DNA from: Caldifarciminota bacterium
GTDB lineage: Bacteria > Hydrothermota > Hydrothermia > UBA1063 > CAJXJZ01
Assembly (NCBI GenBank): GCA_026986775.1
Contig: JALSNX010000019.1
Coordinates: forward strand, 1 to 64,000
Reading direction: 5' to 3'
Length of the DNA: 64,000 bases
Shown here: positions 5,809 through 21,274 of the stretch, piece by piece
Layout: each line of letters starts with the position of its first letter
How positions within the stretch are numbered: position 1 is the first letter of the stretch
Program-made: the position numbers and the translations under genes
Notes under the pieces: model-generated
Seen by the model: the letters and a program-made list of their open reading frames with translations, nothing else
Told to the model about the DNA's origin: nothing
Database searches by the model: none

Positions 5809-5809
5809 C

Positions 5810-6916
5810 CTAAACCTCCCTGAAAAATCCATATCCCAGAGATGTTTTTGCTCCTATGCCCGTGTATTCTGTAAGAGCAAGTTTTAAATAGTTTTCTGCT
5901 TCATCTAACAGTTTGACATCTTTATCGCTATCTTCTGATATTATTTTATCCAAACTTATAACAAACCTGAAAACCGTATCTCTTACTGTCAAAAATGGTA
6001 TGGGAACAAGATTCTGATAGTCTGCTGGCGGCTTTTCCCCTTTGCTTCTATAATACTCTGAATAATGGGAATTCATAACATCAGCATCAAATTTTATTTT
6101 GCCTTCTGGATAGGCATCAAGGAATATCACTTTTCCCGATGCTTTCTGCGCGCCAAAAATATCCTGGACCAGGTGAAGATAACTATTTTGCCAGTTTTCA
6201 GCTATCTCACCTTCAATCTTCGTAATCACCTCTACGGGAAGATACCTTTTTTCACTTTTACTTCTTAGTGTGGAAATACCTGCAAGGTATTTAATACTAT
6301 CCCCACTTTCTTTCCATGCCCTGTAGTCAAATTTATCAATTATGTTGTCAAGACACTCAAGGTCTATGTTATCGTCATTAAGATATTCTGCCCACTTTAT
6401 AACGAATGCGGCCCTGGTTGCGCCTTTTAATGCACTTCCGGGTATATAAGGAATGCCAGTAAGAAAATCCAGCGTCATACCTATTTCATATACATTCGTA
6501 GCTCCCAGTCCAACCACCATTCTTCCATTTAATCTTACAGAAAACTCCTTTCTCGGCTCAATGTTCTTTTGCCATCCTGTATTTATAAATCGTGTTTGAT
6601 ACTCATCAATGCCCCTTTTTGCAACTTCTTTTATGAAATCCAGTTTGTGCTTTACTTCCTGAAGTATTTTCTGTCGCTGCTTTATGTCATATCTTTTTTC
6701 AAGGATGGGCATGCCAAATTTGTTGTAGAGAAGGTAAAAATTCTCAATAGCGTGTGGCAGTTTTATCTGAACATTTCTTCTATCCTGTGTTCCTTTTAAT
6801 TTTAACCCCTCAATCATTTGCGTATCAGCGGGAAGTGTGTGGTAAAATTTTATTTCAACTGGATTATTCTGATGTCGCCTGTTTTTAAAATTTCTGTTGA
6901 AATTTTTAGGAGTCAT
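5810..6916 (-). CDS. cmr6: Cmr6 RAMP subunit
   Basis: This 368-residue RAMP protein has Cmr6 hallmarks. PYIPGSALKGATRAA is the typical RAMP loop after the first fold; IFGAQKASGKVIFLDAYPE follows; the pattern PPADYQNLVPIPFL is characteristic of Cmr6; and the glycine-rich end GIGAKTSLGYG closes the second RRM fold. Cmr6 sits at the head end of the backbone near the 3' end of the crRNA. Its start overlaps the end of cmr5 by 11 bp and has an AAAGGAGG ribosome site. Confidence 0.93.
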   Translation of the reverse strand: MTPKNFNRNFKNRRHQNNPVEIKFYHTLPADTQMIEGLKLKGTQDRRNVQIKLPHAIENFYLLYNKFGMPILEKRYDIKQRQKILQEVKHKLDFIKEVAKRGIDEYQTRFINTGWQKNIEPRKEFSVRLNGRMVVGLGATNVYEIGMTLDFLTGIPYIPGSALKGATRAAFVIKWAEYLNDDNIDLECLDNIIDKFDYRAWKESGDSIKYLAGISTLRSKSEKRYLPVEVITKIEGEIAENWQNSYLHLVQDIFGAQKASGKVIFLDAYPEGKIKFDADVMNSHYSEYYRSKGEKPPADYQNLVPIPFLTVRDTVFRFVISLDKIISEDSDKDVKLLDEAENYLKLALTEYTGIGAKTSLGYGFFREV

Positions 6917-7325
6917 TCTTCTTTTCCTCCTTTAACATTCCCTCAGCAAATCTGCGCATCCAGTTTAAGAGGTTAATGATTTCATCTGTTTTTCTTATTA
7001 CTGTCAAAGAATCCCATTTAACCATATCTTTTATAAGTTGAAAATTACTGCTTTCATCGTTCTCATATCCCCAGAATCTGGCTATATGGTTCAGTAAGAG
7101 GCCATGTGCTTTCTTTTCTCCACCATTCTCTTTCCAGTTATCACCATTTGATTTTGCATATTCAAAACTCAGTGCGGCAAGAAGTCCATTGGTTTTAATC
7201 ATCACTGGAAATTTCTTTACATAGGAAAGATATTTGCCCTCAACGTCTTTATGCTCATTCTTAACCTCTTTCACATACTCAAATGCCTTCTTTGCAAATT
7301 CCTGTCTTTTATTTGCCGTATACAT
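6906..7325 (-). CDS. cmr5: Cmr5 small subunit
   Basis: This 139-residue, mostly helical protein begins with the helix RQEFAKKAFEYVKEV and has the conserved SYVKKFPVMIKTNGLLAALSF stretch typical of Cmr5 (quoted in parts: SYVKKFPVMIKTNGL, LAALSF). In the Cmr complex several copies form the minor filament that lies along the crRNA-target duplex. It is preceded by AAGGAGG, starts 11 bp after cmr4 ends and overlaps cmr6. Small subunits diverge fast, so position between cmr4 and cmr6 helps the call. Confidence 0.93.
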   Translation of the reverse strand: MYTANKRQEFAKKAFEYVKEVKNEHKDVEGKYLSYVKKFPVMIKTNGLLAALSFEYAKSNGDNWKENGGEKKAHGLLLNHIARFWGYENDESSNFQLIKDMVKWDSLTVIRKTDEIINLLNWMRRFAEGMLKEEKKNDS

Positions 7326-7336
7326 TATTCGCCTCC

Positions 7337-8200
7337 TTATTTAAACAATCTGAACATGGTAAAGCCCCTGCCAATGGTCCTGTTGCCGCCAATCTGTATG
7401 ATGTCAGGAAGATTATCCTCTATATGCTGCCTTACATCCTGTGCTTTAAGGTCTTTCGCCTCATTAAAAGACTTGTTATACCTGAAAACTGTATAGAACA
7501 CCGCATCTCTTGGAACATTCTCCTCATACCACAGTGCACTCTGTTTTACTGTCCCTTTTTCGTCATCAATCCTTGTTCTTGCCACCACCTCCGTGAAGTG
7601 CTTTGTAAATTCTCTGAAGACATCGTCAGGTAATATCACGACTTTTTCTGTAAGACCTTCGTAAATGTATGAATCTTTATTGTCAAGTTTTTTGGCAATT
7701 TCTTTAAGAATACCCTTTATTTTACTATCGGCGTCTTTCGCCTTAAATGTAAACTCTTCAAGCACAATATATCTATCGTCCACCTTCAATTTATTTGATA
7801 CCACAATTGCATTATCCTCACCTTCAAATTCAACTGATATCTCATCCTTATCACTCGCCCTCAAAAAATCGTTTAAAACTGAAGGGGATGTTGTGTATGC
7901 AAAAACCCCCCTTACAGACTTTACTGGAAAGAAAAGAATACGTGCATCCTGTATGGAAATACATGATGAATAATCAGCGCCACTCTCTTCTGGCCCAAAT
8001 ATGGTATTGAGCATGTCTTTATCAAATTTCTGGTTGTAGTAGTCTCTCAAAACACCCTTGAGTTCAGATGCCTGTATAATCGGAAGTTCTGTATGAACCT
8101 CCCTTTGAATGGGAAGATCCACGACAGAAAGACTTGAACCACTTCCTGCATGCAATGGAGTGAGTGTGTATAAGAGCACAACTGATTTTTCATCAAACAT
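7337..8200 (-). CDS. cmr4: Cmr4 backbone RAMP subunit
   Basis: This 287-residue protein is the repeated backbone subunit that also carries the target-RNA cleavage residue. It opens with TLTPLHAGSGSSLSVVDLPIQRE, a Cmr4 signature (parts: TPLHAGSG, VDLPIQRE), then LPIIQASELKGVLRDYY, with the thumb region following, and ends IGGNRTIGRGFTMFRLF, the glycine-rich loop. An aspartate near the start of the family is needed for cleavage every 6 nt; a plausible one lies in the SVVDLPIQRE segment, but this needs alignment. It overlaps cmr3 by 8 bp and has an AAGGAGGT ribosome site. Confidence 0.95.
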   Translation of the reverse strand: MFDEKSVVLLYTLTPLHAGSGSSLSVVDLPIQREVHTELPIIQASELKGVLRDYYNQKFDKDMLNTIFGPEESGADYSSCISIQDARILFFPVKSVRGVFAYTTSPSVLNDFLRASDKDEISVEFEGEDNAIVVSNKLKVDDRYIVLEEFTFKAKDADSKIKGILKEIAKKLDNKDSYIYEGLTEKVVILPDDVFREFTKHFTEVVARTRIDDEKGTVKQSALWYEENVPRDAVFYTVFRYNKSFNEAKDLKAQDVRQHIEDNLPDIIQIGGNRTIGRGFTMFRLFK

Positions 8201-9374
8201 TATGCACCTCCTTATTTTTCTTGTTTACTCCTACTATTGTGAGCCCAAAACCTGCATTTTTAAGGTTTTCATTCATTGCATGGTTTTTCAAAAAATATTT
8301 ATCAAATACTCTGTCAATGATTTCGTCGTCTGTATCTTTTAACCGAAATACATAATACGAGCCTTCAGGCACAGCCCTATAAGATAATTTTGATTTCTTA
8401 TCGGCAATGGACCAGCCGGATACCATAGTATAGGAACCTATGGCCATACCTTTAAGTTCCATAATGTTTTCGTCAAAATCAATCATATATCCCTTTTCAA
8501 AGACGCCGGGTGTAAGGAGTATGAGTTTAAACTCACCATACATTTTCACTTTCTCCTTTACCTTTTTTCTGTTTTGTACAAATATGCCGGTAAATGAATT
8601 ATTTGCTATGTAATAATTAACAGTCCGCATGTCACCGCCCAGAAGCATATTGCCTTCTTCTGGGAATTTTACAGCATCGTCTATCTCAATTTCAACAAAA
8701 TACCTTACCTCTTCTTTGGGCCTTATAAATTCTGTGGTGAAGAGTTTCCCTTCAATCACTGTATTTTTATCATCAGATATTCCGGTTCCCGTTCTTATTT
8801 CTTTATTGAATAGACCATCAAATTCACTGTATCTTTCAAATTCTTTTTTCTCTCCGATAAGATACAAGATAAAATCGTCGTGGGTTAGAAAAGAGTTAAA
8901 GTTTTCCACCTTCTGGGTACTCTGATTTTTCTCATTTTCTTCATCAACAATCACATTCACATAATACCCATCAATGGGTTTTGTATAAAACTTCTCATCA
9001 CTCATTTTACTGCTTAATCTTATATTGTCGTAATAGAAAACCTTTTTGCTATTTTTATTCTCAACTATATCAAGTGGAGCCTTTATCAGAAATGAATCTT
9101 TACCTTCATGGTATATACCGTATGACCTGATTTTGAGGCCGTAAATCTTTCTGTATATGTCTTCATCGGTTTTTCCACCGTTTTTTACAATTTCTCTGAA
9201 TTTAGGAAAAGAAAGACCGTTTGCCTCTATCAACATGCTCCATATAGCACCTCTTAAAGTAAGTCCCTTCGGTATGTTTTCTGTCCTTAAAACGTGCTCA
9301 AGTTCCGACTTCTGTGGTGAGCCTGTGCCAAAACGAAGCACATCATGGGGTTTTATAAAAATCATTCTATTCAT
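8193..9374 (-). CDS. cmr3: Cmr3 crRNA 5'-handle-binding subunit
   Basis: I choose the ATG preceded by AAGGAGGTCAAGTG, 11 codons inside a longer open frame, which gives 393 residues. The start MNRMIFIKPHDVLRFGTG followed by PKGLTLRGAIWSML matches the Cmr3 pattern (phospho-binding RAMP loop near the N terminus). The C-terminal RRM ends NAGFGLTIVG. Cmr3 pairs with Cas10 and holds the crRNA handle. It overlaps the cmr2 stop by 8 bp, consistent with translational coupling. Confidence 0.93.
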   Translation of the reverse strand: MNRMIFIKPHDVLRFGTGSPQKSELEHVLRTENIPKGLTLRGAIWSMLIEANGLSFPKFREIVKNGGKTDEDIYRKIYGLKIRSYGIYHEGKDSFLIKAPLDIVENKNSKKVFYYDNIRLSSKMSDEKFYTKPIDGYYVNVIVDEENEKNQSTQKVENFNSFLTHDDFILYLIGEKKEFERYSEFDGLFNKEIRTGTGISDDKNTVIEGKLFTTEFIRPKEEVRYFVEIEIDDAVKFPEEGNMLLGGDMRTVNYYIANNSFTGIFVQNRKKVKEKVKMYGEFKLILLTPGVFEKGYMIDFDENIMELKGMAIGSYTMVSGWSIADKKSKLSYRAVPEGSYYVFRLKDTDDEIIDRVFDKYFLKNHAMNENLKNAGFGLTIVGVNKKNKEVHNV

Positions 9375-12300
9375 CACTTGACCTCCTTGCAATGAATCTT
9401 GCAACATTTAAAAGGTCAAAAAATCTTTTTCTATTATGAATTATTTTTACTTTCTCATCTGCTGGATTATCTTCTTCAAAGGCATCCGGCTTTTCATAAA
9501 GATTCATTATTCCGCATGTAAGAAATTCCACAATATCTTTTTTAAGATTTTTAAAGTCTTTTCTGCCCTCTTTGTTCTGATAATTCTTCCTGAGGCTCAA
9601 TTTTCTTGAAAGCAGTCTTTTTATCTCCCATAGAAGCATTTCCCTGAAGCCTTCCTCACCTTCAGAAGATTCCATTATTTCAGAAAACTCCATCCACAGT
9701 TCAACAACAAACGAATCTGAGAGACTTAGTTTTGGCAGTAATTTTCTAATGTTATCCTCAATTTCCAGGAAAATGTCAATCTCTTTAAGCCTACCTTCTA
9801 TTTTTAAAGCATCATTTTCATTGTTCATGAGGTCGCTTAAAAGCATGAAGAACAAAAAGGCTGGAAATTGTTTCTCCCTGTCTTTATCAATTTCTTTTAT
9901 CCATTTATCACCCGTTTTGATATGCTCTCCGCTTCTCTTCAAAAGGTATATGCCAAAGGTGTTTCTGCCGAGAACCTCTTTAGCGTAATGCTCTGCTTCT
10001 ATTGATTTTTCAATTACCGTTGAAAGTGGTGTAAGATAGTGCGCAAGAACTATTCCAGCAGAAGCGGTTGCCCTCTGTCCCATGGTGGGTAAAATCCTTT
10101 CTATTTTATTGCCTTTCTTTATGCGAACAAAGGAACTATTTGATTCAAACTCTGCTGTTTCTGTTTTGAAAGAATACCCCTCTTCCTTTTTCCTGCCGCC
10201 CATTCCGCCGTAAAACATATATGTTCTGAAGGCAGCATCAAACACATGTTTTTCAGGCAAAAGGGCAAGGACATCATCTCCACCAGCATACACCAAAAAA
10301 CCATAGTGCTCTTTTATGATTTCAGACACTATCTCTTTTGCAAAGGTGGAAAGGGCATAACTCATGTAGCGGTGTATAGAGGGAGAAATATTCTGCTTTT
10401 CTTTGAGCACATCTTTATAGGTATTGTCAATTTCGTGGTCAACATCAGGATGCACATAATCCCATTTAGTGCCAAGGTTATCACCAGAAAGCCACTTCCC
10501 CATTTTATCTCCATCAAAGTTTATTATTCCATAATAGGGTTCAGGTGCGATATTGTATTCTTCTTTAATCTTTTTGACTATTTTAGCATAAACTTTTCCC
10601 GCATTTTCAATCTTTTTTTCAAGTTCAGCATTATCTTTTTCATACTCTTTTGCAAGCCTTTTATATCCGTTTACATCGTAAAGTTCACCGCTTAGTTTAA
10701 AACCAAGTGGAGTTTCTATCCCTATTCCTAATGTTTTCAGGTTCACCTTTTTGATTTTAGAATTTTCTGCAACTTTTTCTACATAAAAATCATCGGGTAA
10801 AATGCTTTCCTGAAAAGGTTTTATTGCTTCAACCCATTTTTTGAAATCTTTTACATAAGAAGGTGCAATTTCCCAGAACTTCTCAATAAACTCTGAAAAA
10901 GCGATTTGAGAAATAGATGGTGCGTGCTGGTATTTTTCAATTTTACTGTAGTCAATTTCATATTGTTTATTAAGTTTTTTTGCATATATTTCAGGAAACT
11001 TCCTTTTTAATATATCAAGCAGGCAGAGTTGTTCGTTCTCATTTTTGGCAAGAGTCGCATCATTTTCATGTATTTTACCCCACACATCTCTATAATCTTC
11101 CCTTTTTGTAGCCTCAAATGGCATAAACACACTTCTTTCTCCGCAGATGGTGCATTTTTCTCCTTTTTCTACAAACTGCTCAAACTCCCTTATCCTCTTT
11201 CTTGCTCCGATGGCAGATTCAGTTAAAGAATACTCATTTTTATAGGTGTTCCTGCTCAGTGCTCTATCCCACTTAATCCTGTTCACGACAAAATAGTATT
11301 CAAAAGAGGAATTTTTATGCCTTTCTTTCAAGTCATTCATGAATTTTTCATCAAGTTGTTCATTGAAGTTTTCGAATTTTTCTTTAATTTCTTTATATGC
11401 ATCCTCAAATAAAGCATCTTTTGCCTTGTTAAAGGCTTCTTCTACCTCTTTCACGGTTTCCTCAATGTCATCATCGGGAATAATGGCAAAGAACCTGTTA
11501 GGGATGGAAGGGATAAACAGCCTTCTTATGCTGTTTTGATATTCCCGATACAGGGCCTTTTTCACATGATAAAGTTGGTCATTCTCGTTTATGTCGTTCC
11601 AGTTTTTAAGTTCAGGGATAATATCTTCTGTGATTTTCAGGTCAAGTAAAGGTGAAGAAAGCATATTGGGGAAAATAATACTATCAGGTCCGTATTCTTT
11701 TATTACTGGTTCCATGGATCTAAAGATAAGGTAGGCAAGCATAAGACTACCGGAAAGAAAGTCGTTGGTTTTTCTTGCCTTACTGATGAACCTCTGAACA
11801 GGGCCTATGGTGAAAATAAAAAATCCAGCGCCATTTTCCGTATTAACGAGGGCTGATGTGGTAATGTTGTGGAGATATACCGAGTGATTGGGCAATCTCG
11901 TATCAGCAGGTAAAAGTTCCCATAAGTATCCAAGCCTGTTTTCATATTTTTCTTTATCATAAGTTTTGCTTCCCTCAATGGCCCTCAAAACAGGAATGGA
12001 ATACCGCCAGAGGAGGAAAAAGAGTTTTTTATACCTATCTTCCTTATTCTCATCTTCACCTATAAGTTGCAGGAAGAATTTTAACATGGTTTCAATGGTG
12101 TCCTTAGCGTGCTTTTCTATGGCATCCACAATTTGTATCTTCTCATCTTCAGAGAGTTTATCCCAATTAACTTTGTAGTTTTTAAGAACACCATATTTTG
12201 AGAGGTCATACTTATCTGCTGAAAGAGGGTGAACTATATAGGGTGACCTTACAAAGGAGACCTTTATGGGATTTCCGTTTTTATCTTTCAGTTCCTCAAA

Positions 12301-12522
12301 GAGAGACCTGTCAAAGGAGGCCGCAATACGGTCAAACTTCTTTATCCTGTCAATGAAGGACTCTTCTATGCCAAAAAGCAATAGTAGCTTTTTCGCATAA
12401 GTCTCGTGATACTCTTCATCCTTCCTTCCAAGCATAAGTGCCTTGTTTAATGGGTCATGCAAAAATGCAGCAATTTTTAATTTCCAGAAATCATTTTTGA
12501 AGTTACCATCTGTATTGTTCAT
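9367..12522 (-). CDS. cmr2: Cas10 (Cmr2): target-activated cyclic-oligoadenylate synthase
   Basis: This 1051-residue protein has the Cas10 layout. Residues 1-170 form an HD-like domain with FLHDPLNKAL (H22-D23). A large central part includes a small zinc-binding segment (C457, C460, with C500 a possible partner). The first palm residue lies in INFDGDKMGKW (about 668-677), and the catalytic palm has YAGGDD (745-750). An intact GGDD motif implies cyclic oligoadenylate synthesis when target RNA is bound, which fits three CARF-containing proteins in the same locus. The retained HD pair means DNase activity is possible but not certain, since Cmr2 HD domains are often weak. A GGGAGG site precedes the ATG. 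Confidence 0.96.
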   Translation of the reverse strand: MNNTDGNFKNDFWKLKIAAFLHDPLNKALMLGRKDEEYHETYAKKLLLLFGIEESFIDRIKKFDRIAASFDRSLFEELKDKNGNPIKVSFVRSPYIVHPLSADKYDLSKYGVLKNYKVNWDKLSEDEKIQIVDAIEKHAKDTIETMLKFFLQLIGEDENKEDRYKKLFFLLWRYSIPVLRAIEGSKTYDKEKYENRLGYLWELLPADTRLPNHSVYLHNITTSALVNTENGAGFFIFTIGPVQRFISKARKTNDFLSGSLMLAYLIFRSMEPVIKEYGPDSIIFPNMLSSPLLDLKITEDIIPELKNWNDINENDQLYHVKKALYREYQNSIRRLFIPSIPNRFFAIIPDDDIEETVKEVEEAFNKAKDALFEDAYKEIKEKFENFNEQLDEKFMNDLKERHKNSSFEYYFVVNRIKWDRALSRNTYKNEYSLTESAIGARKRIREFEQFVEKGEKCTICGERSVFMPFEATKREDYRDVWGKIHENDATLAKNENEQLCLLDILKRKFPEIYAKKLNKQYEIDYSKIEKYQHAPSISQIAFSEFIEKFWEIAPSYVKDFKKWVEAIKPFQESILPDDFYVEKVAENSKIKKVNLKTLGIGIETPLGFKLSGELYDVNGYKRLAKEYEKDNAELEKKIENAGKVYAKIVKKIKEEYNIAPEPYYGIINFDGDKMGKWLSGDNLGTKWDYVHPDVDHEIDNTYKDVLKEKQNISPSIHRYMSYALSTFAKEIVSEIIKEHYGFLVYAGGDDVLALLPEKHVFDAAFRTYMFYGGMGGRKKEEGYSFKTETAEFESNSSFVRIKKGNKIERILPTMGQRATASAGIVLAHYLTPLSTVIEKSIEAEHYAKEVLGRNTFGIYLLKRSGEHIKTGDKWIKEIDKDREKQFPAFLFFMLLSDLMNNENDALKIEGRLKEIDIFLEIEDNIRKLLPKLSLSDSFVVELWMEFSEIMESSEGEEGFREMLLWEIKRLLSRKLSLRKNYQNKEGRKDFKNLKKDIVEFLTCGIMNLYEKPDAFEEDNPADEKVKIIHNRKRFFDLLNVARFIARRSSDE

Positions 12523-12539: not shown

Positions 12540-13379
12540 TTAAGCAAGATTTTCAATAAATCTCTTAAATTTTTGTCCATCTATTTGAGAAGCATTGTTC
12601 TTTATACTGGTAGGCGGGGCAGCATTTACCATCACTAAAATAGGATAGTATTTATTTCCAATTTTCTTCACATTTACCCACACAGGCGAAGCGTAGCGAG
12701 GTTTTACATCTCCCAGTAATGGGGTATTATTCCTATGTGACTCCTTTCCTATTTTTTCAAGCAATTCCATTGCTGAATTCACAGGACTTCCAATCAGGAC
12801 CTGTTTAAGATAAGGGTATCTTGCGTTTTTACTTCTGTGAATTTCTATACTATTTTTCTGCACAGTAAAGCGAACATTAAAATATCTCAAAATTTCACTG
12901 CATTCTGAGATAAATTCCTCTTTACTCTTAAATGTTCTGTATTGTATAGAACCAAACCCCCTTCTTGCCCGCTGACCAAAACCTCCAAGTAAAGAAGCAA
13001 GTTTAAGAACATTTACAGCCAGCAATGTCACATTCTTATTTTGAGCCCTTATAGTTACCGAAAACTCCTTCCCGGAAGGAATTGCTCTTAATTTAAAGTT
13101 CCTATCGTCTCTGTGAGGAAGTGGTTTTACAAGGTGCGTGCTGGATAAAGGCGGGACATACAGAATAAAAGGGCTTTTTACTGCATCCGGATTTGTCCCT
13201 CCAAATACCTCCGTTTCTCTCTTCCGCAAAACCTCAATGGGCAAATCCATAACCGCTCTCCACCAGTATCTCATAAGCCCTTTAATGGACGATGCCCTGA
13301 GTTCAGCCTCATCTCTGGGTCGGGCTCCATGCATGAACATAGGCGTTATAATTTCAAATTTAAGTTGCATTTTTCCCAT
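12540..13379 (-). CDS. cmr1: Cmr1 RAMP subunit
   Basis: I start at ATGGGAAAAATGCAAC, behind GGAGGTGGGA; the frame is open for another 33 codons upstream but that part (MDCKRYMVK...) has no family resemblance or ribosome site. The resulting 279-residue protein begins KFEIITPMFMHGARPRDEAE, followed by RASSIKGLMRYWWRA, the Cmr1 RAMP signature, and has GGFGQRARRGFGSIQ in the second fold. Cmr1 caps the complex near the 3' end of the crRNA and helps target capture. It is the first cmr gene; 118 bp separate it from the small genes upstream. Confidence 0.93.
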   Translation of the reverse strand: MGKMQLKFEIITPMFMHGARPRDEAELRASSIKGLMRYWWRAVMDLPIEVLRKRETEVFGGTNPDAVKSPFILYVPPLSSTHLVKPLPHRDDRNFKLRAIPSGKEFSVTIRAQNKNVTLLAVNVLKLASLLGGFGQRARRGFGSIQYRTFKSKEEFISECSEILRYFNVRFTVQKNSIEIHRSKNARYPYLKQVLIGSPVNSAMELLEKIGKESHRNNTPLLGDVKPRYASPVWVNVKKIGNKYYPILVMVNAAPPTSIKNNASQIDGQKFKRFIENLA

Positions 13380-13401
13380 TCCCACCTCCATTTTCTTGTG
13401 T

Positions 13402-13430
13402 AGTTTAATGCAACATATTTGTTTGATCAA
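13402..13430 (-). promoter_or_regulatory. Possible sigma70-type promoter for cmr1
   Basis: On the minus strand TTGATC (13425-13430) and TAAACT (13402-13407) are exactly 17 bp apart in the 118-bp gap upstream of cmr1. If used, it would let cmr genes be expressed without read-through from the sigma54 promoter at 14301-14316. The match is moderate and by eye. Confidence 0.4.
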
Positions 13431-13497
13431 TAATTTAACATATCTACTAATCTTTACCATGTATCTTTTGCAGTCCATTTTTTACGAAAATCCTATT

Positions 13498-13701
13498 TCA
13501 AGATCTTGTAATTATGCATACAATTTCGCCAATGGCCTTTCCCGCTGTTTTGCCAATTTTTTTCCCTTTCTTTCCCATGACTTTTACTCCCACAGATTCA
13601 CCAATCTTACAAGATGCTTTTTTTATTGATGCGCACACACCATCAATAATTATGTCTCTAACAGGAGCAGGTATCTTCTTACGCTTAATAATCTTAGTCA
13701 T
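13498..13701 (-). CDS. Small cationic glycine-zipper protein, 67 aa
   Basis: This 67-residue protein is not recognised. It is strongly basic, has two cysteines near the middle (CASIKKASC) and a C-terminal half with glycines at zipper spacing (GKKGKKIGKTAGKAIGEIV) ending in a short hydrophobic run. A similar pattern closes the 80-residue protein of this cassette (GKATGKKAGEFIIKII). An AAGGAGGT site lies just before the ATG, and the start is 3 bp after the stop of the 30-residue gene. Such sequences can be membrane-active amphipathic helices, but no function can be assigned. It is the last of four small genes between the sigma54 promoter and cmr1. Confidence 0.75.
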   Translation of the reverse strand: MTKIIKRKKIPAPVRDIIIDGVCASIKKASCKIGESVGVKVMGKKGKKIGKTAGKAIGEIVCIITRS

Positions 13702-13704
13702 GTT

Positions 13705-13797
13705 TTACCTCCTTGTTACAATTATGATGATAATATCAATAATCTTTTTTGTAACTTCTCCTATAATTTTTACTTTTCTTTTATCAATTTTTTTCAT
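13705..13797 (-). CDS. Tiny membrane-helix protein, 30 aa
   Basis: This frame encodes 30 residues: a basic start (MKKIDKRKVK), then a helix that becomes almost pure isoleucine (IIDIIIIIV) and a TRR end. It fills the gap between two other small genes: its ATG is one base from the stop of the 70-residue gene and its stop is 3 bp before the next start. AAGGCGGTG, 4 bases upstream of the ATG, is a plausible ribosome site. A basic N terminus and one short hydrophobic helix suggest a membrane peptide. It is short enough that chance cannot be dismissed, but fit and spacing are good. Confidence 0.6.
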   Translation of the reverse strand: MKKIDKRKVKIIGEVTKKIIDIIIIIVTRR

Positions 13798-13798
13798 T

Positions 13799-14011
13799 TT
13801 ACACCGCCTTGTTTAAATTTTTCAGATTTTTCTGGGTATTGGAATGGGTATCCTGCCCGGTATTTTTTTTATCATGACATGTATGATGAAAAACACAACT
13901 TCCACACCAATTTTCCTTACGTCTTCCCTGGCCATTGTGGCCTTTATTTTTTCTTTCTATTTTTTCTTTCATTTTTTCTACTTTAGTTTTCTTTCTTCCA
14001 AATATTCTCAT
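13799..14011 (-). CDS. Small basic protein with possible zinc-binding CxxC-HxxxC motif, 70 aa
   Basis: This 70-residue protein is very rich in Lys, Arg, Asn and Gly. In the middle it has CGSCVFHHTCHDKK, in which three cysteines and flanking histidines could bind a metal or form a nucleic-acid-binding knuckle. It starts MRIFGRKKTKVEKMKEK, a charged helix, and an AAGGAGGTG site precedes the ATG. It lies 16 bp after the 80-residue gene and one base before the 30-residue gene. I do not recognise a family. Soluble nucleic-acid binder or regulator of its membrane-type neighbours are guesses. Confidence 0.72.
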   Translation of the reverse strand: MRIFGRKKTKVEKMKEKIERKNKGHNGQGRRKENWCGSCVFHHTCHDKKNTGQDTHSNTQKNLKNLNKAV

Positions 14012-14027
14012 TTTACACCTCCTTATT

Positions 14028-14270
14028 TTAAAATATTTTTGAAATAATTTTTATAATAAACTCTCCTGCTTTCTTTCCAGTTGCTTTTCCTGCTTCTGAT
14101 GCACCAACGGTAACCACATGCTTGGCAGCAGAGTCTTCACCAAAAACCTTATCAGACATCTTTTCAGCCGCAGCGAAAAATGTTGCTTCAACTGTAGTCT
14201 CCACAATGCTCATAATTATTACTTCAGTTGATTTAGCTATTCCCATTACAATGAAAGGCATAAAAAACAT
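14028..14270 (-). CDS. Small hydrophobic/glycine-zipper protein, 80 aa, first gene of sigma54-promoter operon
   Basis: This 80-residue protein begins with a hydrophobic helix (MFFMPFIVMGIA, continuing to about residue 35), has a short acidic linker (MSDKVFGEDSAAKH) and ends with an amphipathic glycine-zipper helix (GKATGKKAGEFIIKIISK). The end resembles that of the 67-residue protein. AAAGGAGGTGAG lies before the ATG, and the predicted sigma54 transcription start is about 20 bases upstream. Being first behind a promoter controlled by a CARF activator, it is the most direct output of the signal. A membrane-perturbing effector, holin-like protein or bacteriocin-like peptide are all possible; none is shown. 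Confidence 0.75.
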   Translation of the reverse strand: MFFMPFIVMGIAKSTEVIIMSIVETTVEATFFAAAEKMSDKVFGEDSAAKHVVTVGASEAGKATGKKAGEFIIKIISKIF

Positions 14271-14300
14271 AATCTCACCTCCTTTATTTACTTATAATAC

Positions 14301-14316
14301 TACAAACTGCATGCCA
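14301..14316 (-). promoter_or_regulatory. Sigma54 (-24/-12) promoter for small-protein operon
   Basis: On the minus strand TGGCATGCAGTTTGTA matches the sigma54 consensus TGGCACG-N4-TTGCA at all but two constrained positions (T for C in the -24 box, T for C at -12), with the exact N4 spacing. The predicted start is near 14290, leaving a 20-base leader containing AAAGGAGGTGAG. The adjacent TATTAT has no -35 box at sigma70 spacing. The GAFTGA-containing activator encoded next door makes a sigma54 promoter expected. Confidence 0.75.
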
Positions 14317-14365
14317 ATTTTTCTACTTTAGTGCAAATCTTTATTACACAAGCACTTATAAAAGT

Positions 14366-14425
14366 ATTGCCGGACTTTTAAGGCAGATTGCCGGTGGATT
14401 TTTCCTGTTTTTGGTGGACTTTTCC
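14366..14425. promoter_or_regulatory. Phased direct repeats, likely upstream activator sites
   Basis: ATTGCCGG occurs at 14366 and 14387 (21 bp apart). GGTGGATTTTTCC at 14393 recurs as GGTGGACTTTTCC at 14413 (20 bp apart). These periods are about two helical turns, so copies face the same side of DNA. They lie roughly 75-135 bp upstream of the predicted sigma54 start, the usual distance for enhancer-binding activators, and end against the -35 box of the activator's own promoter, which suggests autoregulation. Confidence 0.6.
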
Positions 14426-14454
14426 TTGATTTTATCATTTTTGAGCATTATAAT
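14426..14454 (+). promoter_or_regulatory. Sigma70-type promoter of the CARF-sigma54 activator
   Basis: TTGATT (14426-14431) and TATAAT (14449-14454) are 17 bp apart. The expected transcription start, 7 bases after the -10 box, is the A of the ATG at 14461, so the mRNA would be leaderless. No Shine-Dalgarno sequence precedes the ATG, in contrast to the strong sites of neighbouring genes. Confidence 0.75.
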
Positions 14455-14460
14455 TAAAAC

Positions 14461-16254
14461 ATGGAAGGGCAGGGCAATATTCTTATAACGACACTCGGTA
14501 TAACTCCTGCTATAATAACAGAGACCATTGATAAATTATACGCAGAAAAGATAATAGATGACCTTAAGGAACTCGTAATTGTCACAACGAGCCATAAAAA
14601 AGTAACGGAAAAATTGAATAAACTGTTAAAAAACGAGTTTGATGCAAGAGAATTAAAATACGAAGATTATGAATACCAGAATGAAGAAGAGGACTCATCT
14701 GACTTAAAGGGTTTCAAAGAAGGACCCGTTAAAATAGCATACACGCCATTTCCAGTAAGATACAATCACATAAAGGCATTAAAGCCACAAATCAAAATCT
14801 ATTTTCTTCCTTTTGAGGACATAAAAAACGATAAAGACAACGACCTTTTGTTCGGACTTTTGAATAAAATTTTTTCAGACAGACATAAAAACTCAAGAAT
14901 CCTTGTTTCCCTTGCCGGTGGTAGGAAAACCATGAGTGCGATTCTATATTTTGTAGCACAGACGTTCAGGGCGGACGGTATATATCATGTTCTTGTAGAT
15001 AAAGAAACAGAGTTATCAGGAAAAATGCACCCGGTAACGGAAAAAATAACCCTTGTAAAACTTCCTTCATCAGTTCCATCAAATAATCTGGTGAAAGAGG
15101 TTAAGAGTCTGGAAGAAGTAAATATTTTCAATGAAATTGACGGGAAAATTGAAAAGGGTATTTTCATAAACACAGAAGGAAAAATGCAGAAGATTTATAT
15201 AGAGGAAAAACTCAAAGAAAGACTCAAAGAAACACTATTTTCTCTGAAACGGAGCCTGAAAGGGAACAAAATAAAGGCTATTCTTCTCACTGGAGAAACA
15301 GGAGTGGGAAAGAGGGTAATGGCAGAGTTCATTCATTATGTTATTTTCAATGGCGAGGGAGAGTTCAGGGCATACACAATTGGGGGCCGTGAAAACCCCG
15401 ACATTATAAGAAGCGAGATATTTGGTCACAAAAAAGGAGCCTTTACAGGCGCTATTGAGGAAGAAGAAGGTCTTGTTGAGTCCATAAAAACAGGGACAAT
15501 ATTCCTGGATGAGATCGGTGATATTTCAGAACACGTCCAGACACAACTTTTAAATGTAATAGAAACCGGTGAATATCAAAGACTTGGTGAACATGGGGAG
15601 AAGCGGAAACTGAAGGGAAAAATCCTTTTTGTATTTGCCACAAATAAAGAAGATAAGGTTAGAGAGGACCTGAAATACAGAACAGAACACATAAAAATCC
15701 CACCCTTAAGAGAAAGAAAAGGGCATATCATAGAATACCTTGTGGATTCTCTGAGACAGGAAGAAGAAAAGCGAAAATTAAATTTAAAGCCCATTAAAAA
15801 GGCACTGGAAAGGCACATAGACAAACTATACATGTGTCAATGGAAAGGCAATTTCAGGGAACTTGCTAAATTCATTGATGAGATTGTCACGAGGTATGAA
15901 TATATGGCACATAAATTAAAAGCAACTGGTAAATCAGATGAGTTAAACTCAATAGCAGACTCCATCGTCAGAGAAAAATTAGCGGAAAGACTTTCACTAA
16001 AAGAAACCAATGATGAAATTGTAACCAAAAACGACTGCTTTAAATACATAATAACACAGGCGTTAAAAAACAATGCACAGACTCTAAAAGAGATACACAG
16101 AAGGACAGGTCTTGACGAGAAAACAATAAAGAAATACATCAGAAAAATTATAGATGAAGAAATAAAGAATGGCAGGAATTTACCAACCATAGCAAAAGGA
16201 CTCAATTTAAGTGAGCGAATTTTGAAGAAAATACTACAAGAAAACACTGAATGA
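14461..16254 (+). CDS. CARF-domain sigma54 enhancer-binding activator
   Basis: This 597-residue protein has three parts. Residues 1-210 are a CARF-type domain resembling the Cas_NE0113 group: ILITTLGITPAIITETI near the start, then ILVSLAGGRKTMSA (147-160), the ligand loop. Residues about 240-480 are a sigma54 AAA+ ATPase with Walker A GETGVGK (278-284), an intact GAFTGA sigma54-contact loop (326-331), Walker B IFLDEIGD (347-354), arginine-finger region PPLRERKGHI and WKGNFREL (461-468). The C terminus has two helix-turn-helix-like segments (about 541-563 and 573-592). RtcR is the known CARF-sigma54 relative. It likely couples cyclic oligoadenylate to transcription from the promoter at 14301-14316. 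It is leaderless and shares an ATGA overlap with cas6. Confidence 0.88.
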   Translation: MEGQGNILITTLGITPAIITETIDKLYAEKIIDDLKELVIVTTSHKKVTEKLNKLLKNEFDARELKYEDYEYQNEEEDSSDLKGFKEGPVKIAYTPFPVRYNHIKALKPQIKIYFLPFEDIKNDKDNDLLFGLLNKIFSDRHKNSRILVSLAGGRKTMSAILYFVAQTFRADGIYHVLVDKETELSGKMHPVTEKITLVKLPSSVPSNNLVKEVKSLEEVNIFNEIDGKIEKGIFINTEGKMQKIYIEEKLKERLKETLFSLKRSLKGNKIKAILLTGETGVGKRVMAEFIHYVIFNGEGEFRAYTIGGRENPDIIRSEIFGHKKGAFTGAIEEEEGLVESIKTGTIFLDEIGDISEHVQTQLLNVIETGEYQRLGEHGEKRKLKGKILFVFATNKEDKVREDLKYRTEHIKIPPLRERKGHIIEYLVDSLRQEEEKRKLNLKPIKKALERHIDKLYMCQWKGNFRELAKFIDEIVTRYEYMAHKLKATGKSDELNSIADSIVREKLAERLSLKETNDEIVTKNDCFKYIITQALKNNAQTLKEIHRRTGLDEKTIKKYIRKIIDEEIKNGRNLPTIAKGLNLSERILKKILQENTE

Positions 16255-17195
16255 AAGACTTTTTTAATTTAAACTATGTAAATCTTGATTTTAACCTGAA
16301 ATTCAAAGGGCCAGCAAAATTTCCCCCTTATAAAGGAACCACCATAAGGGGAGCACTCGGTATGGGATTTAAGAATACTGTATGCCTTTACAAAAAGCGT
16401 TCATGTGCAGAATGCCCATTTAAAGAAAAATGCAGTTTCGCATACAATTTTGAAACCCCTGTGACAAAGAATGCTCCAGTTTTAAAAAAATATCAAAACG
16501 CACCCCATCCATTCATAATAATACCTGACAGTGAAAAAAAACAGGAATTTTATGCAGGAGACAATTTTGCGTTTACAATCAGGCTATTTGAAAAAGGCAT
16601 TTTGTTCTACGCCTATTACATAGAGGCGTTCAGGCACATAGAGAAAAATGGCATAGGAATAAAAGAAAACAGGGGAAAATTCGTTCTAACAGAGGTCAAT
16701 TTGTGCAATAAGCCTATATTCAGGAATGGAGATTTCCTTATAGAAAACTTTTCAGAATGCGTTTTTAAACCGAAATTACTTAGAAGGCCTATAAAGAATT
16801 TGACACTTGAGTTTATAACACCTGCAAAGATAATTGAAAATGGTAAAGTTACATTAAAGCCCACGTTCAGAACAATAATAAAGTCTTTGTTATGGAGATA
16901 CAGTCTAATTAAGTTCTGGCATTCAGACCATGAGCCTTTTTCTTCCTTTTATAAAGAACTCATACACAAATCAGAGCAAGTAACAATATCAAATCTAAGT
17001 ATAGAGCCAGTTCGGATAAAGAGATTTTCTACCCGAAAAAAGGTATATATGGAACTATTAGGTTTTATGGGAGTTATAACATTTGCAGGAGAACTCTCTG
17101 AGTTTATTCCTCTATTACAAATAGGAGAGATTATAAACATAGGGCATAATACCTCTTTTGGCTTTGGCAGGTTTAAAATAATTAACATGCAATAA
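16251..17195 (+). CDS. cas6: Cas6 pre-crRNA endonuclease
   Basis: This 314-residue RAMP protein matches the Cas6 type found with type III systems. It opens with a beta strand and PYKGTTIRGALGMGF, then a cysteine-rich insertion (CAECPFKEKC) typical of this subgroup, PHPFIIIP, and ends with the glycine-rich loop INIGHNTSFGFGRFKI. Cas6 cleaves within the repeat to leave an 8-nt 5' handle, here predicted to be GTTAAGAC. The ATG overlaps the activator stop (ATGA), and cas1 begins 13 bp downstream. The catalytic residue is not fixed across the family, so I do not name one. Confidence 0.9.
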   Translation: MKDFFNLNYVNLDFNLKFKGPAKFPPYKGTTIRGALGMGFKNTVCLYKKRSCAECPFKEKCSFAYNFETPVTKNAPVLKKYQNAPHPFIIIPDSEKKQEFYAGDNFAFTIRLFEKGILFYAYYIEAFRHIEKNGIGIKENRGKFVLTEVNLCNKPIFRNGDFLIENFSECVFKPKLLRRPIKNLTLEFITPAKIIENGKVTLKPTFRTIIKSLLWRYSLIKFWHSDHEPFSSFYKELIHKSEQVTISNLSIEPVRIKRFSTRKKVYMELLGFMGVITFAGELSEFIPLLQIGEIINIGHNTSFGFGRFKIINMQ

Positions 17196-17208
17196 CAGGG
17201 AGGTTGAC

Positions 17209-18168
17209 ATGCCCACACTGTATCTTACAGAGCAGGGCAGCAAACTAAAAAGGTCCGGCAGAAGATTTATAATAGAAAAAGATGATGAAATAATAGCAGA
17301 CATACCTTTAATAAAAATAGAACGCATTTTTGTATTCGGTCATGTTCAGATTACAACACAGGCCCTTGAACTTGCATTTAACCATGAGATACCACTTGCT
17401 TTTTTCACGAAAGATGGGAGATTGAAAGGATTGCTTGAGCCAAGAAAGTCCAAAAATGTTCTATTAAGAGTATCTCAATACAGGCTTGCCACAGATAAAG
17501 CATACAGTACAGATACAGCCCGATTGTTCATAAAATCTAAAATTCTGAGTCAAATAAAGCTTATTAACTCATTTAAAAAGAACAATCCAGAAATAGATTT
17601 CAGCGAGGAACTTATCGGGATGAGCAGAAATGTTGAGAAACTTGAGAGGAAAAACAGTAAGAAAGGTATGCTTGGAGTGGAAGGAGTGTGTACACACTAT
17701 TACTTTAAAGCCTTCAGAAAAATGGTAAAGAATTCCGAATTCGCATTTACAAAAAGAAGTAAGAGACCACCAAGGGATGAGGTTAACTCTTTACTGAGTT
17801 ATGGATATACAATACTGACAACTGAATATACTTACACCTTGCTTTCTTACGGATTTGACCCATACTTTGGATTTCTTCACGAAATCTACTACGGCAGGCC
17901 ATCACTATCCCTTGATTTGGTTGAGGAAACACGGCATCTAATAATTGATAGAATAGTTCTGAACCTGATAAACAGAAAGATAATTCACAAAGCAGACTTT
18001 GAGCAAAAAGGTGAAGGATTTTTCATAAAGGGAGAGGGTAAGAAGCATTTTTTCAAATATTACGAAGATTCTCTCTCCCGGATAAAACAAATCATAACAG
18101 AGCAAATAGAGAATCTTCGCAGGGCAGTAGAAAACCGCAAGTATTACACCATCTACAATGAAAAATGA
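17209..18168 (+). CDS. cas1: Cas1 integrase
   Basis: This 319-residue protein is full length for Cas1. The metal-binding triad is visible as E158 (GVEG), H224 (FLHEIYYGR) and E239 (DLVEE). Cas1 integrates new spacers at the leader-repeat junction together with Cas2. GGGAGGT precedes the ATG, and its end overlaps cas2 by 4 bp. No reverse transcriptase is fused or adjacent, so acquisition from RNA is not indicated. Confidence 0.97.
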   Translation: MPTLYLTEQGSKLKRSGRRFIIEKDDEIIADIPLIKIERIFVFGHVQITTQALELAFNHEIPLAFFTKDGRLKGLLEPRKSKNVLLRVSQYRLATDKAYSTDTARLFIKSKILSQIKLINSFKKNNPEIDFSEELIGMSRNVEKLERKNSKKGMLGVEGVCTHYYFKAFRKMVKNSEFAFTKRSKRPPRDEVNSLLSYGYTILTTEYTYTLLSYGFDPYFGFLHEIYYGRPSLSLDLVEETRHLIIDRIVLNLINRKIIHKADFEQKGEGFFIKGEGKKHFFKYYEDSLSRIKQIITEQIENLRRAVENRKYYTIYNEK

Positions 18169-18446
18169 AGTTTTTTGTTGTGGTTTCTTACGACATAAAG
18201 GATGACAGAAGACGGAACAAACTTTCAAAGGAACTATTAAATTACGGAAAAAGGGTGCAGTTCAGTGTATTTGAATGTAATTTAACTCAGATTGAAATAA
18301 ACGATATGGAGAAGAGGATTAAAAAAATCGTCAATGTAGAGGAAGACAGTGTAAAAATTTACATATTAGACATGGCATCAAAACTCAGGTCTAAAAGTAT
18401 TGGAACTAAAAGATTTACAGAGGATGAAGATTATCTTATTTTTTAA
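18165..18446 (+). CDS. cas2: Cas2 adaptation protein
   Basis: This 93-residue protein has the Cas2 ferredoxin fold start FVVVSYDIKDDRRRNKL with the conserved aspartate (D10), then FECNLTQIEIN and a C-terminal segment suited to the edge-strand interaction with Cas1. It ends the rightward operon of activator, cas6, cas1 and cas2 and lies 67 bp from the conserved leader of the right array. Confidence 0.96.
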   Translation: MKFFVVVSYDIKDDRRRNKLSKELLNYGKRVQFSVFECNLTQIEINDMEKRIKKIVNVEEDSVKIYILDMASKLRSKSIGTKRFTEDEDYLIF

Positions 18447-18513: not shown

Positions 18514-18920
18514 CGTTCTTTGACAAAGATGTGGAAGAGCAAGGAGGAGAAGGGATAAGAGAGACGAAACCAGAATCTTTGTTAAGAAAATAAAATTGTG
18601 TAAAGGAACTCAAAACTGATTTTTCAAGAAATAGCAGGTAAAAGCAGGTAGGCTTTAAAATAATTCTAAAAATTCCTTGTGAGTTTTCAAATATAAACAT
18701 AAGTGCAAAAATAGTGTTTAAATTCTTGTGTATCAATAAGTTAACAGAAAAAGTCTGAAAATGACTTGAGAAAGTAGTCATAAACTGTTGGGAGACGGGG
18801 AATCTGTGAAAATAAACATTTATATATTTACAAAAAGTCATGGAATTTAAGGTCCAAAAAGCGAGATACCGAAAATTGGCCTTCAAACCCCTTGTCTCCC
18901 AACGACAAAAAAATGGTGCT
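18514..18920 (+). promoter_or_regulatory. Leader of right CRISPR array
   Basis: This is the inverted counterpart of 2521-2927, the same 407-bp length, with about 19 differences by eye; the stretch matching about 2625-2785 looks identical. It abuts the first repeat at 18921. The internal inverted motif GTTGGGAGACGGGG (18787-18800) and CCCCTTGTCTCCCAAC (18888-18903) is kept. A 135-codon open frame on the minus strand lies across it but is explained by the duplicated DNA and is not called. Confidence 0.9.
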
Positions 18921-20770
18921 CTCTGAATAAACTCCTTGCCTAAAAAGGGTTAAGACCACAATCTTATCTCCTCTTTGCATATCCTTATGGCCTCATCTAC
19001 AACACCTCTGAATAAACTCCTTGCCTAAAAAGGGTTAAGACCAAACCAAATTCCTTAAACTCTCCCAGACCTTTGCCACATCAACAGCTCTGAATAAACT
19101 CCTTGCCTAAAAAGGGTTAAGACGAGCAGAGGAAGAACTGAAAGAGGCGCTCGGAAGAAATCCAACAACTCTGAATAAACTCCTTGCCTAAAAAGGGTTA
19201 AGACGCTGTTGGTGGTCCGAATGTGAGCTTGATGATAGCTGCACGCATAGCTATACCATTGCCTCTGAATAAACTCCTTGCCTAAAAAGGGTTAAGACTA
19301 TTGGGCAATGCACGAGCAGGCATAAGCATATGTATGAGTATTACTCTGAATAAACTCCTTGCCTAAAAAGGGTTAAGACGATAGTAAAAACGAATTTCCC
19401 GCACCCAATATACCCCGACCTCTGAATAAACTCCTTGCCTAAAAAGGGTTAAGACTCCTCTTTTTCCCAATAAATCCAACTTTCCAGATCCCTAGCCTTC
19501 CTCTGAATAAACTCCTTGCCTAAAAAGGGTTAAGACTATGCCAGTCCCTTCAAGTATAGATGACCTTTTGAAAATAACAGCTCTGAATAAACTCCTTGCC
19601 TAAAAAGGGTTAAGACCTGGGTGCTCTTGTAGCCTGCGGTCTGGGTGCTCCAGTGCCCTGCGGCTCTGAATAAACTCCTTGCCTAAAAAGGGTTAAGACA
19701 ACTCCTTTATCTTTTCTATTACTTTGTCGTAGTTTCCTAATTTCATGCTCCTCTGAATAAACTCCTTGCCTAAAAAGGGTTAAGACGTCTTCTACAACCT
19801 TCTGGGCTGTCTTGTTGACGATTTCCTTCTCTATCTCGTCCTCTGAATAAACTCCTTGCCTAAAAAGGGTTAAGACCTAAAAGCTGCTTTCCCTTACCTG
19901 TGATAATCCTACCCTTTCCATTATCCTCTGAATAAACTCCTTGCCTAAAAAGGGTTAAGACCAAGATAAGCCGTCCCAGACGTGGCACTTACAGCAGTAG
20001 TTTCGGTCTCTGAATAAACTCCTTGCCTAAAAAGGGTTAAGACGACACCAACAAGGCCAAGGCTCATGTACGCGCTAAGAATCCTATTCAGCTCTGAATA
20101 AACTCCTTGCCTAAAAAGGGTTAAGACTCAATGACACATATGCATTGCCTTTATTTACACTCCTGATATTTGTTAACTCTGAATAAACTCCTTGCTTAAA
20201 AAGGGTTAAGACGAGCTCTATGATCATAATACATACACCTCCTTTTATTATTTTTGTCTCTGAATAAACTCCTTGCTTAAAAAGGGTTAAGACGCTAAAA
20301 GAATTTGGATTTTCATTTTCATATTCATTTTGTCCTTCCTCTGAATAAACTCCTTGCTTAAAAAGGGTTAAGACTTCTTGTTCCTCTAAAATTGGGAAAA
20401 ATATTGCTTTTGTTCCCTCTGAATAAACTCCTTGCTTAAAAAGGGTTAAGACCTATTTTAGTTCATCCATTGCTTCTGCATAGAACCTTGCTTGTGTGTC
20501 TCTGAATAAACTCCTTGCTTAAAAAGGGTTAAGACTAGAGCAACTGTCGGCTTATACCCGAATTATCCTTTTATTTTCCTCTGAATAAACTCCTTGCTTA
20601 AAAATGGTTAAGACTTTCATACGCCTTACTACCTTTGGAGTACTCTTCTACCGTGCCACTCTGAATAAACTCCTTGCTTAAAAAGGGTTAAGACGCCTGC
20701 TTCGTGGAGGGTTTTTGAGAGTGCTCTCTGCGTTGCTCTGAATAAACTCCTTGCTTAAAAAGGGTTAAGA
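18921..20770 (+). CRISPR. Right CRISPR array, 23 repeats and 22 spacers
   Basis: Twenty-three 36-bp repeats have 22 spacers of 40-58 bp, transcribed rightward from the adjoining leader. Repeats 1-15 match the left array. Repeats 16-23 (20177 onward) carry C20T (TTGCTTAAAA), and repeat 21 (20579-20614) also G27T. The last repeat (20736-20770) lacks its final base where the hairpin element begins. Spacers include one at 20213-20257 whose complement contains AAAGGAGGTG and an ATG, and one at 19617-19663 with a 24-bp internal duplication. Most spacers read as protein on the strand opposite to the crRNA. Confidence 0.98.
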
Positions 20771-20885
20771 ATAGCACCCCATGGAAACGCTGACGGTTTC
20801 CATGGGGACCCCGCCGAAAGATAAAAGAAAGTTTTTTTATCGGGGTCCCCGCGACTTTGCGAAGCAAAGGCGTGGGGTGGTATTT
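20771..20885. mobile_element. REPIN/MITE-like 115-bp element inside right CRISPR array (element A)
   Basis: Same 115-bp element as 1299-1413, inverted. It consists of hairpin CCCCATGGAAAC/GTTTCCATGGGG, a linker (GAAAGATAAAAGAAAG and a T-run), and hairpin CCCCGCGACTTTGC/GCAAAGGCGTGGGG. It is flanked by repeat positions 1-35 on the left and positions 12-36 on the right, so 24 bases of one repeat appear on both sides. That is what insertion into a single repeat with a 24-bp target duplication would leave. No coding capacity. Confidence 0.82.
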
Positions 20886-20982
20886 CTCCTTGCCTAAAAA
20901 GGGTTAAGACCCCTCACCACAGCAGAAAAGGACATCTTCTCTGACTCCTCTGAATAAACTCCTTGCCTAAAAAGGGTTAAGA
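20886..20982 (+). CRISPR. Distal remnant of right array: truncated repeat, 37-bp spacer, repeat
   Basis: Beyond element A lie a truncated repeat (20886-20910, positions 12-36), a 37-bp spacer (20911-20947) and a repeat lacking its last base (20948-20982) that abuts element B. These repeats have C20, unlike the preceding eight. The left array has only a truncated repeat between elements A and B, so it lacks exactly one repeat-spacer unit here. Confidence 0.9.
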
Positions 20983-21150
20983 ATGGCACCCCATGGAAAC
21001 ACTAACGGTTTCCATGGGGACCCCGCCGAAAGATAAATATTTTTTAAGACAGGCAGGTCATACAGCCATATAGAGAGGAAGTATTTAAGTATCGGGGTCC
21101 CCGTGAAAATGCGTAGCATTTTCATGGGGTGGTTTTCGGGGTCCCCATGG
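20983..21150. repeat. Palindromic hairpin cluster at distal end of right array (element B, right copy)
   Basis: This 168-bp segment is the inverted, almost identical copy of 1107-1274. It contains the ATGGAAAC hairpin, a 60-70 bp linker (AGGCAGGTCATACAGCC), the GTGAAAATGC/GCATTTTCAT hairpin and half of a third hairpin, then homology ends. The remaining 21151-21274 has only a degenerate palindrome around 21231-21260 and no gene that I can support. Confidence 0.85.
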
Positions 21151-21274
21151 ATTTACCCGCCGTATGCTAAAAAATTGCTTGCACAAATTTTCAGGGAACT
21201 CTTTAATATAAAATAATCAATTTAAATTGAGGTCCTTATGACTTTGTGTGACAAAGGTCCAGGGATATAATGAG

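Follow-up and report, generated by a model that had tools for sequence, protein, structure and literature searches.

Introduction

The cyclic oligoadenylate (cOA) responses of type III CRISPR systems known so far are mostly carried out by enzymes. Csa3, a CARF-wHTH protein that binds cA4, is a transcription factor. In the open-access literature that we searched, the transcriptional exceptions were Csa3 and the CalpL-CalpT-CalpS relay, in which a cA4 signal leads to sigma-factor-dependent transcription (PMC11229360). A CARF domain is also found in RtcR, a CARF-AAA+-HTH protein that activates rtcBA through sigma54, where it represses the protein to which it belongs; RtcR binds 2',3'-cyclic phosphate RNA and was reported to be unresponsive to cyclic oligoadenylates (PMC9650030). 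RtcR homologues have been described beside restriction systems and CoCoNuTs, not Cas10, and are predicted sensors of 2',3'-cyclic phosphate RNA (PMC4012209, PMC11090510), and defence superoperons are the predicted targets of their activation (PMC11090510). In Myxococcus, a CRISPR-associated operon is under Nla28, a sigma54 activator (PMC9765219). We found no description in the open-access literature of a type III locus that contains a CARF-sigma54 activator.

Here we analyse a 597-aa protein of this kind, hereafter the activator (14461-16254, plus strand), encoded in a type III-B locus within a 64,000-nucleotide stretch of DNA (the window). It shares with RtcR an N-terminal CARF, a central sigma54 AAA+ domain, a C-terminal helix-turn-helix (HTH) and a sigma54 promoter at the adjoining operon, but differs in having a type III signalling CARF with a GGRK sequence and in its place within a type III-B locus. 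As with Csa3, control of CRISPR genes would be gated by a CARF domain, although Csa3 is a plain DNA-binding regulator with neither AAA+ nor sigma54. The CalpL-CalpT-CalpS relay likewise converts a cOA signal into sigma-factor-dependent transcription, but there a SAVED-Lon protease cuts an anti-sigma factor and no CARF activator acts on sigma54.

Gene organisation of the locus

The activator gene heads the cas6-cas1-cas2 operon (16251-18446, plus strand; profile matches, PADLOC Cas6 1.6e-78) and overlaps cas6 through an ATGA. Beyond cas2 comes a CRISPR array (18920-20985) with some 24 repeats. Past the array end, at 20736-21151, there is an alternation of repeats, strong hairpins (CCCCATGGAAAC...GTTTCCATGGGG) and a common CGGGGTCCCC element, in two or three copies.

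On the minus strand, divergent from the activator, are four small genes followed by a complete cmr1-6 set and two CARF nucleases. The cmr genes comprise cmr1 (12540-13478, TIGR01894 4e-18, with a probable true start at about 13370-13379), cas10/cmr2 (9367-12522, TIGR02577 1.2e-69 and PF22335) and cmr3, cmr4, cmr5 and cmr6 (5810-9407; TIGR01888, TIGR02580, TIGR01881 and TIGR01898). The nucleases are a CARF-HEPN-CARF protein of the Csx1/Csm6 kind (4015-5832, PADLOC CARF2 CARF_HEPN_CARF 2e-87) and a Card1/Can2-like CARF-PDDEXK protein (2970-4022, PF23400 1.1e-33). A preliminary description of this DNA had placed the activator at the head of cas6-cas1-cas2, facing a Cas10 with an intact GGDD; the gene order is as it stated, and the GGDD cyclase motif is present in the translation. 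The second, C-terminal CARF of the 4015-5832 protein could act as an internal sensor or as a ring nuclease.

Between the small genes and cmr1 we detected no terminator on the minus strand, so transcriptional read-through into cmr would be possible.

Domains of the activator and its likely signal

The preliminary description had also recognised a CARF-like domain fused to a sigma54 AAA+ ATPase with intact GAFTGA, and profile searches agree with it. The CARF domain occupies residues 1-205 (14461-15075) and carries the motif SLAGGRKTM; residues 15-198 match PF09623 (Cas_NE0113) with E=1.4e-19 in the Pfam search, and TIGR03642 (Csx14) gives 61.9 bits, under its cut-off of 90. The AAA+ domain (residues 269-477, 15265-15891; PF00158 1.6e-34) retains Walker A (GETGVGK), Walker B (IFLDEIGD), WKGNFRE and an unbroken GAFTGA at residues 326-331 (15436-15453). 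The C-terminal HTH lies at residues 529-563 (16045-16149; PF08280 4.2e-5, slightly above the cut-off). The features of a sigma54 enhancer-binding protein (bEBP) are therefore all seen: Walker A, Walker B and GAFTGA in the AAA+ domain, a C-terminal DNA-binding HTH and, in the host genome, rpoN and a -24/-12 promoter. The Csx14/NE0113 proteins, of which there are many copies in other phyla, are the nearest CARF sequence family, but they end in a domain of about 200 aa without sigma54 AAA+; this family C-terminal domain is lacking here and the AAA+ stands in its place. A single-sequence AlphaFold model of the activator (pLDDT 41.5) was too poor for judging the ligand pocket and was not used.

The two halves of the protein point to different relatives. 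For the AAA+-HTH half (residues 272-562) the closest PADLOC profile is the AAA-HTH part of RtcR_PspF2 (1.2e-46), and the RtcR_PspF1/PspF2 CARF_AAA_HTH proteins resemble the activator also in heading defence operons, whereas their CARF part finds no match in it. In PADLOC, type III signalling profiles (Csx1, CARF5, CARF3; best 8e-29) are the sole matches of the CARF half. We considered and rejected the identification of the activator as RtcR, since fragments covering CARF and linker gave no RtcR, RtcR_PspF1 or RtcR_PspF2 match up to E=10; the whole protein scores 136 bits against NF038308 (RtcR), whose cut-off is 650 bits. The operon divergent from it consists of the four small genes and cmr, not rtcBA. 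By these profiles, the CARF of the activator is of the type III cOA-sensor class, distinct from the RtcR class, and it stands in a type III locus together with a GGDD Cas10. The comparison with RtcR made in the preliminary description holds as a mechanistic parallel only: RtcR itself was reported not to respond to cOA (PMC9650030).

A sigma54 activator of the small-gene operon might nevertheless sense some other signal, such as 2',3'-cyclic phosphate RNA ends, and so report RNA damage instead of listening to Cas10 directly. The overall CARF-AAA-HTH plan is that of RtcR, whose ligand is of this type (PMC9650030), and the 4015-5832 nuclease would yield RNA fragments. We consider this unlikely, although it is the strongest of the alternatives. 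Besides the profile matches of the CARF half, the activator keeps, as GGRK, the basic residue that follows strand 4 and is mostly missing in RtcR families (PMC4012209), and neither rtcA nor rtcB was seen in the examined part of the locus.

A predicted sigma54 promoter upstream of the small genes

Upstream of the small genes, the minus strand at 14301-14316 reads TGGCATG-CAGT-TTGTA (TGGCATGCAGTTTGTA), a predicted -24/-12 promoter with a start predicted at about 14290. It has one mismatch from TGGCAYG-N4-TTGCW and two from TGGCACG-N4-TTGCW. Within the 64-kb window alone such a match means little: sites with two or fewer mismatches numbered 10 against 12.3 expected, a chance level as in shuffles, and the site was therefore calibrated over the whole genome. 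With at most one mismatch, TGGCAYG-N4-TTGCW occurs 59 times in the genome against 9 times in a reversed control, the majority of the 59 falling within ORFs. The pattern TGGCAY-N5-TTGYW occurs 37 times against 2 in the reversed control, and ten located sites of this pattern are intergenic with an ATG 23-33 nt downstream, almost all of them followed by a clear ribosome-binding site. The 14301 site is among these ten, at 30 nt from the ATG. We estimate roughly that, if thirty sites were placed at random, well below one would be intergenic and before an ATG in this manner.

The -12 element of the 14301 site is TTGT instead of TTGC, a deviation which the host genome tolerates, since two of the nine other intergenic sites carry it as well. 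When a scoring matrix of the -24/-12 columns only was built from those nine sites, the 14301 site scored 17.1, the top of all positions in 64 kb, and the nine scored 12.7-19.0 when each was left out of the matrix; the pattern that chose the nine was wide enough to include the 14301 site, so there is some circularity, but the fact that they stand before genes does not depend on the pattern. Another matrix that included the spacer columns put the 14301 site 12th and was rejected as over-fitted to A/T-rich spacers.

The host genome contains a single rpoN (G000:C22:63045), whose absence the preliminary description had named as fatal to its reading. The sigma54 promoter which it proposed, two bases off the consensus, is thus upheld by the whole-genome count and the distance to the ATG, and this promoter-like sequence is significant when judged against the whole genome. 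The sigma54 regulon of the host is compact, with a very constant spacing from promoter to ATG (loci L093, L102, L110, L182, L188, L189, L190 and L192), and its genes seem mostly to encode secreted or envelope-type proteins.

Repeats between the divergent operons

Phased repeats some 75-135 bp upstream of the start had also been described, and we find them at 14366-14426. There are two copies of ATTGCCGG (14366 and 14387) and two of GGTGGAYTTTTCCT (14393 and 14413), with spacings of 20-24 bp, close to two turns of the helix. On the upstream side, 50-110 bp separate them from the -24 element, a distance usual for activator sites, and they are presumed to be upstream activating sites. Exact matches to the repeat 14-mer in the host genome are confined to these two places, one-mismatch matches are at background level, and the 14-mer is absent from all nine other sigma54-type promoters. 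About 1.5% of Markov shuffles yield an equally good repeat, so the repeats by themselves are moderate evidence. Taken together, the promoter, its spacing, the operator-like repeats and the domain make-up support the prediction that the divergent small-gene operon has a sigma54 activator of its own.

The last repeat copy abuts the -35 element of a sigma70-like promoter (TTGATT-17-TATAAT, 14426-14454, plus strand) of the activator-cas6-cas1-cas2 operon, so autoregulation of the activator is possible. Its TATAAT ends about 7 nt before the ATG (14454-14461) and no ribosome-binding site is visible, so the activator mRNA may be leaderless.

This arrangement could also mean that the activator works mainly on its own promoter, as a local repressor or autoregulator in the manner of TyrR or Csa3, with the sigma54 site being coincidental or belonging to another activator. 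A relative in another genome of the phylum (L085, see below), which lacks GAFTGA and has a sigma70-like promoter, would fit such a role. We regard this as improbable, because the activator has kept GAFTGA and every AAA+ motif, and the geometry of the 14301 site is that of the other sigma54 promoters of the host genome.

Four small genes

Four consecutive small ORFs follow the predicted promoter on the minus strand, each preceded by a strong, well-spaced ribosome-binding site. Gene A (14028-14270, Shine-Dalgarno sequence AAAGGAGGTGAG) encodes 80 aa with a hydrophobic N-terminus. Gene B (13799-14011, Shine-Dalgarno AAGGAGGTG) encodes 70 aa with a net charge of +13 and a Cys-His motif, WCGSCVFHHTC; gene D (13705-13797, Shine-Dalgarno AAGGCGGTG) a cationic-hydrophobic peptide of 30 aa; and gene C (13498-13701, Shine-Dalgarno AAGGAGG) an amphipathic protein of 67 aa, also with a net charge of +13. 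In shuffle tests C resembles both A (p=0.007) and D (p=0.002). None of the four has a family match in Pfam or PHROGs, and protein A has no convincing relative among 147 genomes of the phylum. They are mostly cationic, with an amphipathic or hydrophobic character, and from this composition we would guess that they are membrane-active or otherwise growth-arresting peptides. A real switch with the cmr operon as its only true target, the small ORFs being non-genes or without immune function, would agree with this lack of relatives, but it is the least probable of the readings considered, given the ribosome-binding site at each of the four successive ORFs and the mutual similarity of three of them.

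A model for the locus

The explanation that we favour, and think probable, is that the activator specifically serves the type III-B locus as a sigma54 activator gated by a ligand: it is fired by cOA and switches on the small-gene operon. A basal amount of activator would be made with Cas6, Cas1 and Cas2 from the sigma70-like promoter and would occupy the repeats that separate the two divergent operons. Recognition of a target RNA by Cmr would prompt Cas10 to make cyclic oligoadenylate, which would bind the CARF domain and lift the repression of the AAA+ ring. Through its GAFTGA loops the ring could now open the complex of sigma54 and RNA polymerase at 14301-14316, giving a switch-like burst of the four small proteins and, with read-through, extra Cmr and CARF nucleases, that is, positive feedback on cmr. 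Perhaps the switched promoter also lies upstream of Cas10 itself; Cmr would then need a basal source, which counts against the model, and none was identified. It also counts against the model that RtcR, the closest relative in architecture to have been tested, is not activated by cOA (PMC9650030).

The transcriptional arm of a type III response proposed in the preliminary description agrees with the promoter, its spacing, the repeats, the domains, rpoN and a CARF of the cOA-sensing class. Probably, therefore, detection of a virus by this immune system leads to the switching on of genes as well as of enzymes. A bolder version is that cOA directly fires sigma54 through the CARF-AAA+ protein, releasing membrane-active or growth-arresting peptides and amplifying Cmr, so that abortive infection would come from an inducible peptide arm and not from CARF enzymes; we put this forward tentatively, at rather less than an even chance. 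A CARF sensor tied straight to sigma54 activation would link cOA to a promoter in the most direct way, and small proteins of no known family would be flagged as candidate inducible defence effectors. The activator and the 14301 site offer a test system of one protein and one promoter.

Distribution of the CARF-sigma54 fusion

More than 1,200 genomes were surveyed, and the fusion was found twice, both times in the same phylum and in a type III locus. The 147 genomes of the phylum contained one further fusion (G121:C43, L085 9708-11198), a protein of 496 aa from a genome in a different family of the phylum. It heads a type III-A operon in the order CARF-AAA, csm1-5, cas6, cas4-cas1 and cas2 (names from order and sequence). 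In this protein GVATDV replaces GAFTGA although rpoN is present in that genome, suggesting that it probably no longer drives sigma54; by eye, its promoter is a near-consensus sigma70-like TTGACA..TATAGT. It is probably a former sigma54 activator that was converted to another kind of regulator. The preliminary description had proposed a survey of other genomes for this gene arrangement; a second CARF-AAA+ fusion does head a type III operon, but that copy is without GAFTGA.

The activator gene was not found in genomes of the same genus, and the survey gave no close homologue of the whole locus. In other phyla, sets of 395, 297, 8 and 379 genomes were searched with CARF profiles. Csx14-type proteins were numerous there, and the matched proteins that were inspected all lacked an AAA+ domain; inspection covered the best matches only, so that the rarity of the fusion is an estimate and not a proof of absence. 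Searches of plasmid and viral collections gave no matches. A scan of genome contigs with the full protein was set aside, as it returned ordinary sigma54 activators, none of which (0 after a motif filter on those loci) had a CARF domain.

A different combination was noticed in another genome (G019:C151), where a protein encoded at L004 1294-2187 on the minus strand joins an NE0113-type CARF to a LuxR-type HTH. An rpoN search of that genome was without match. No cas genes were noticed near this CARF-HTH gene, whose neighbours are a penicillin-binding-protein-like gene and Hsp20/Lon-like genes.
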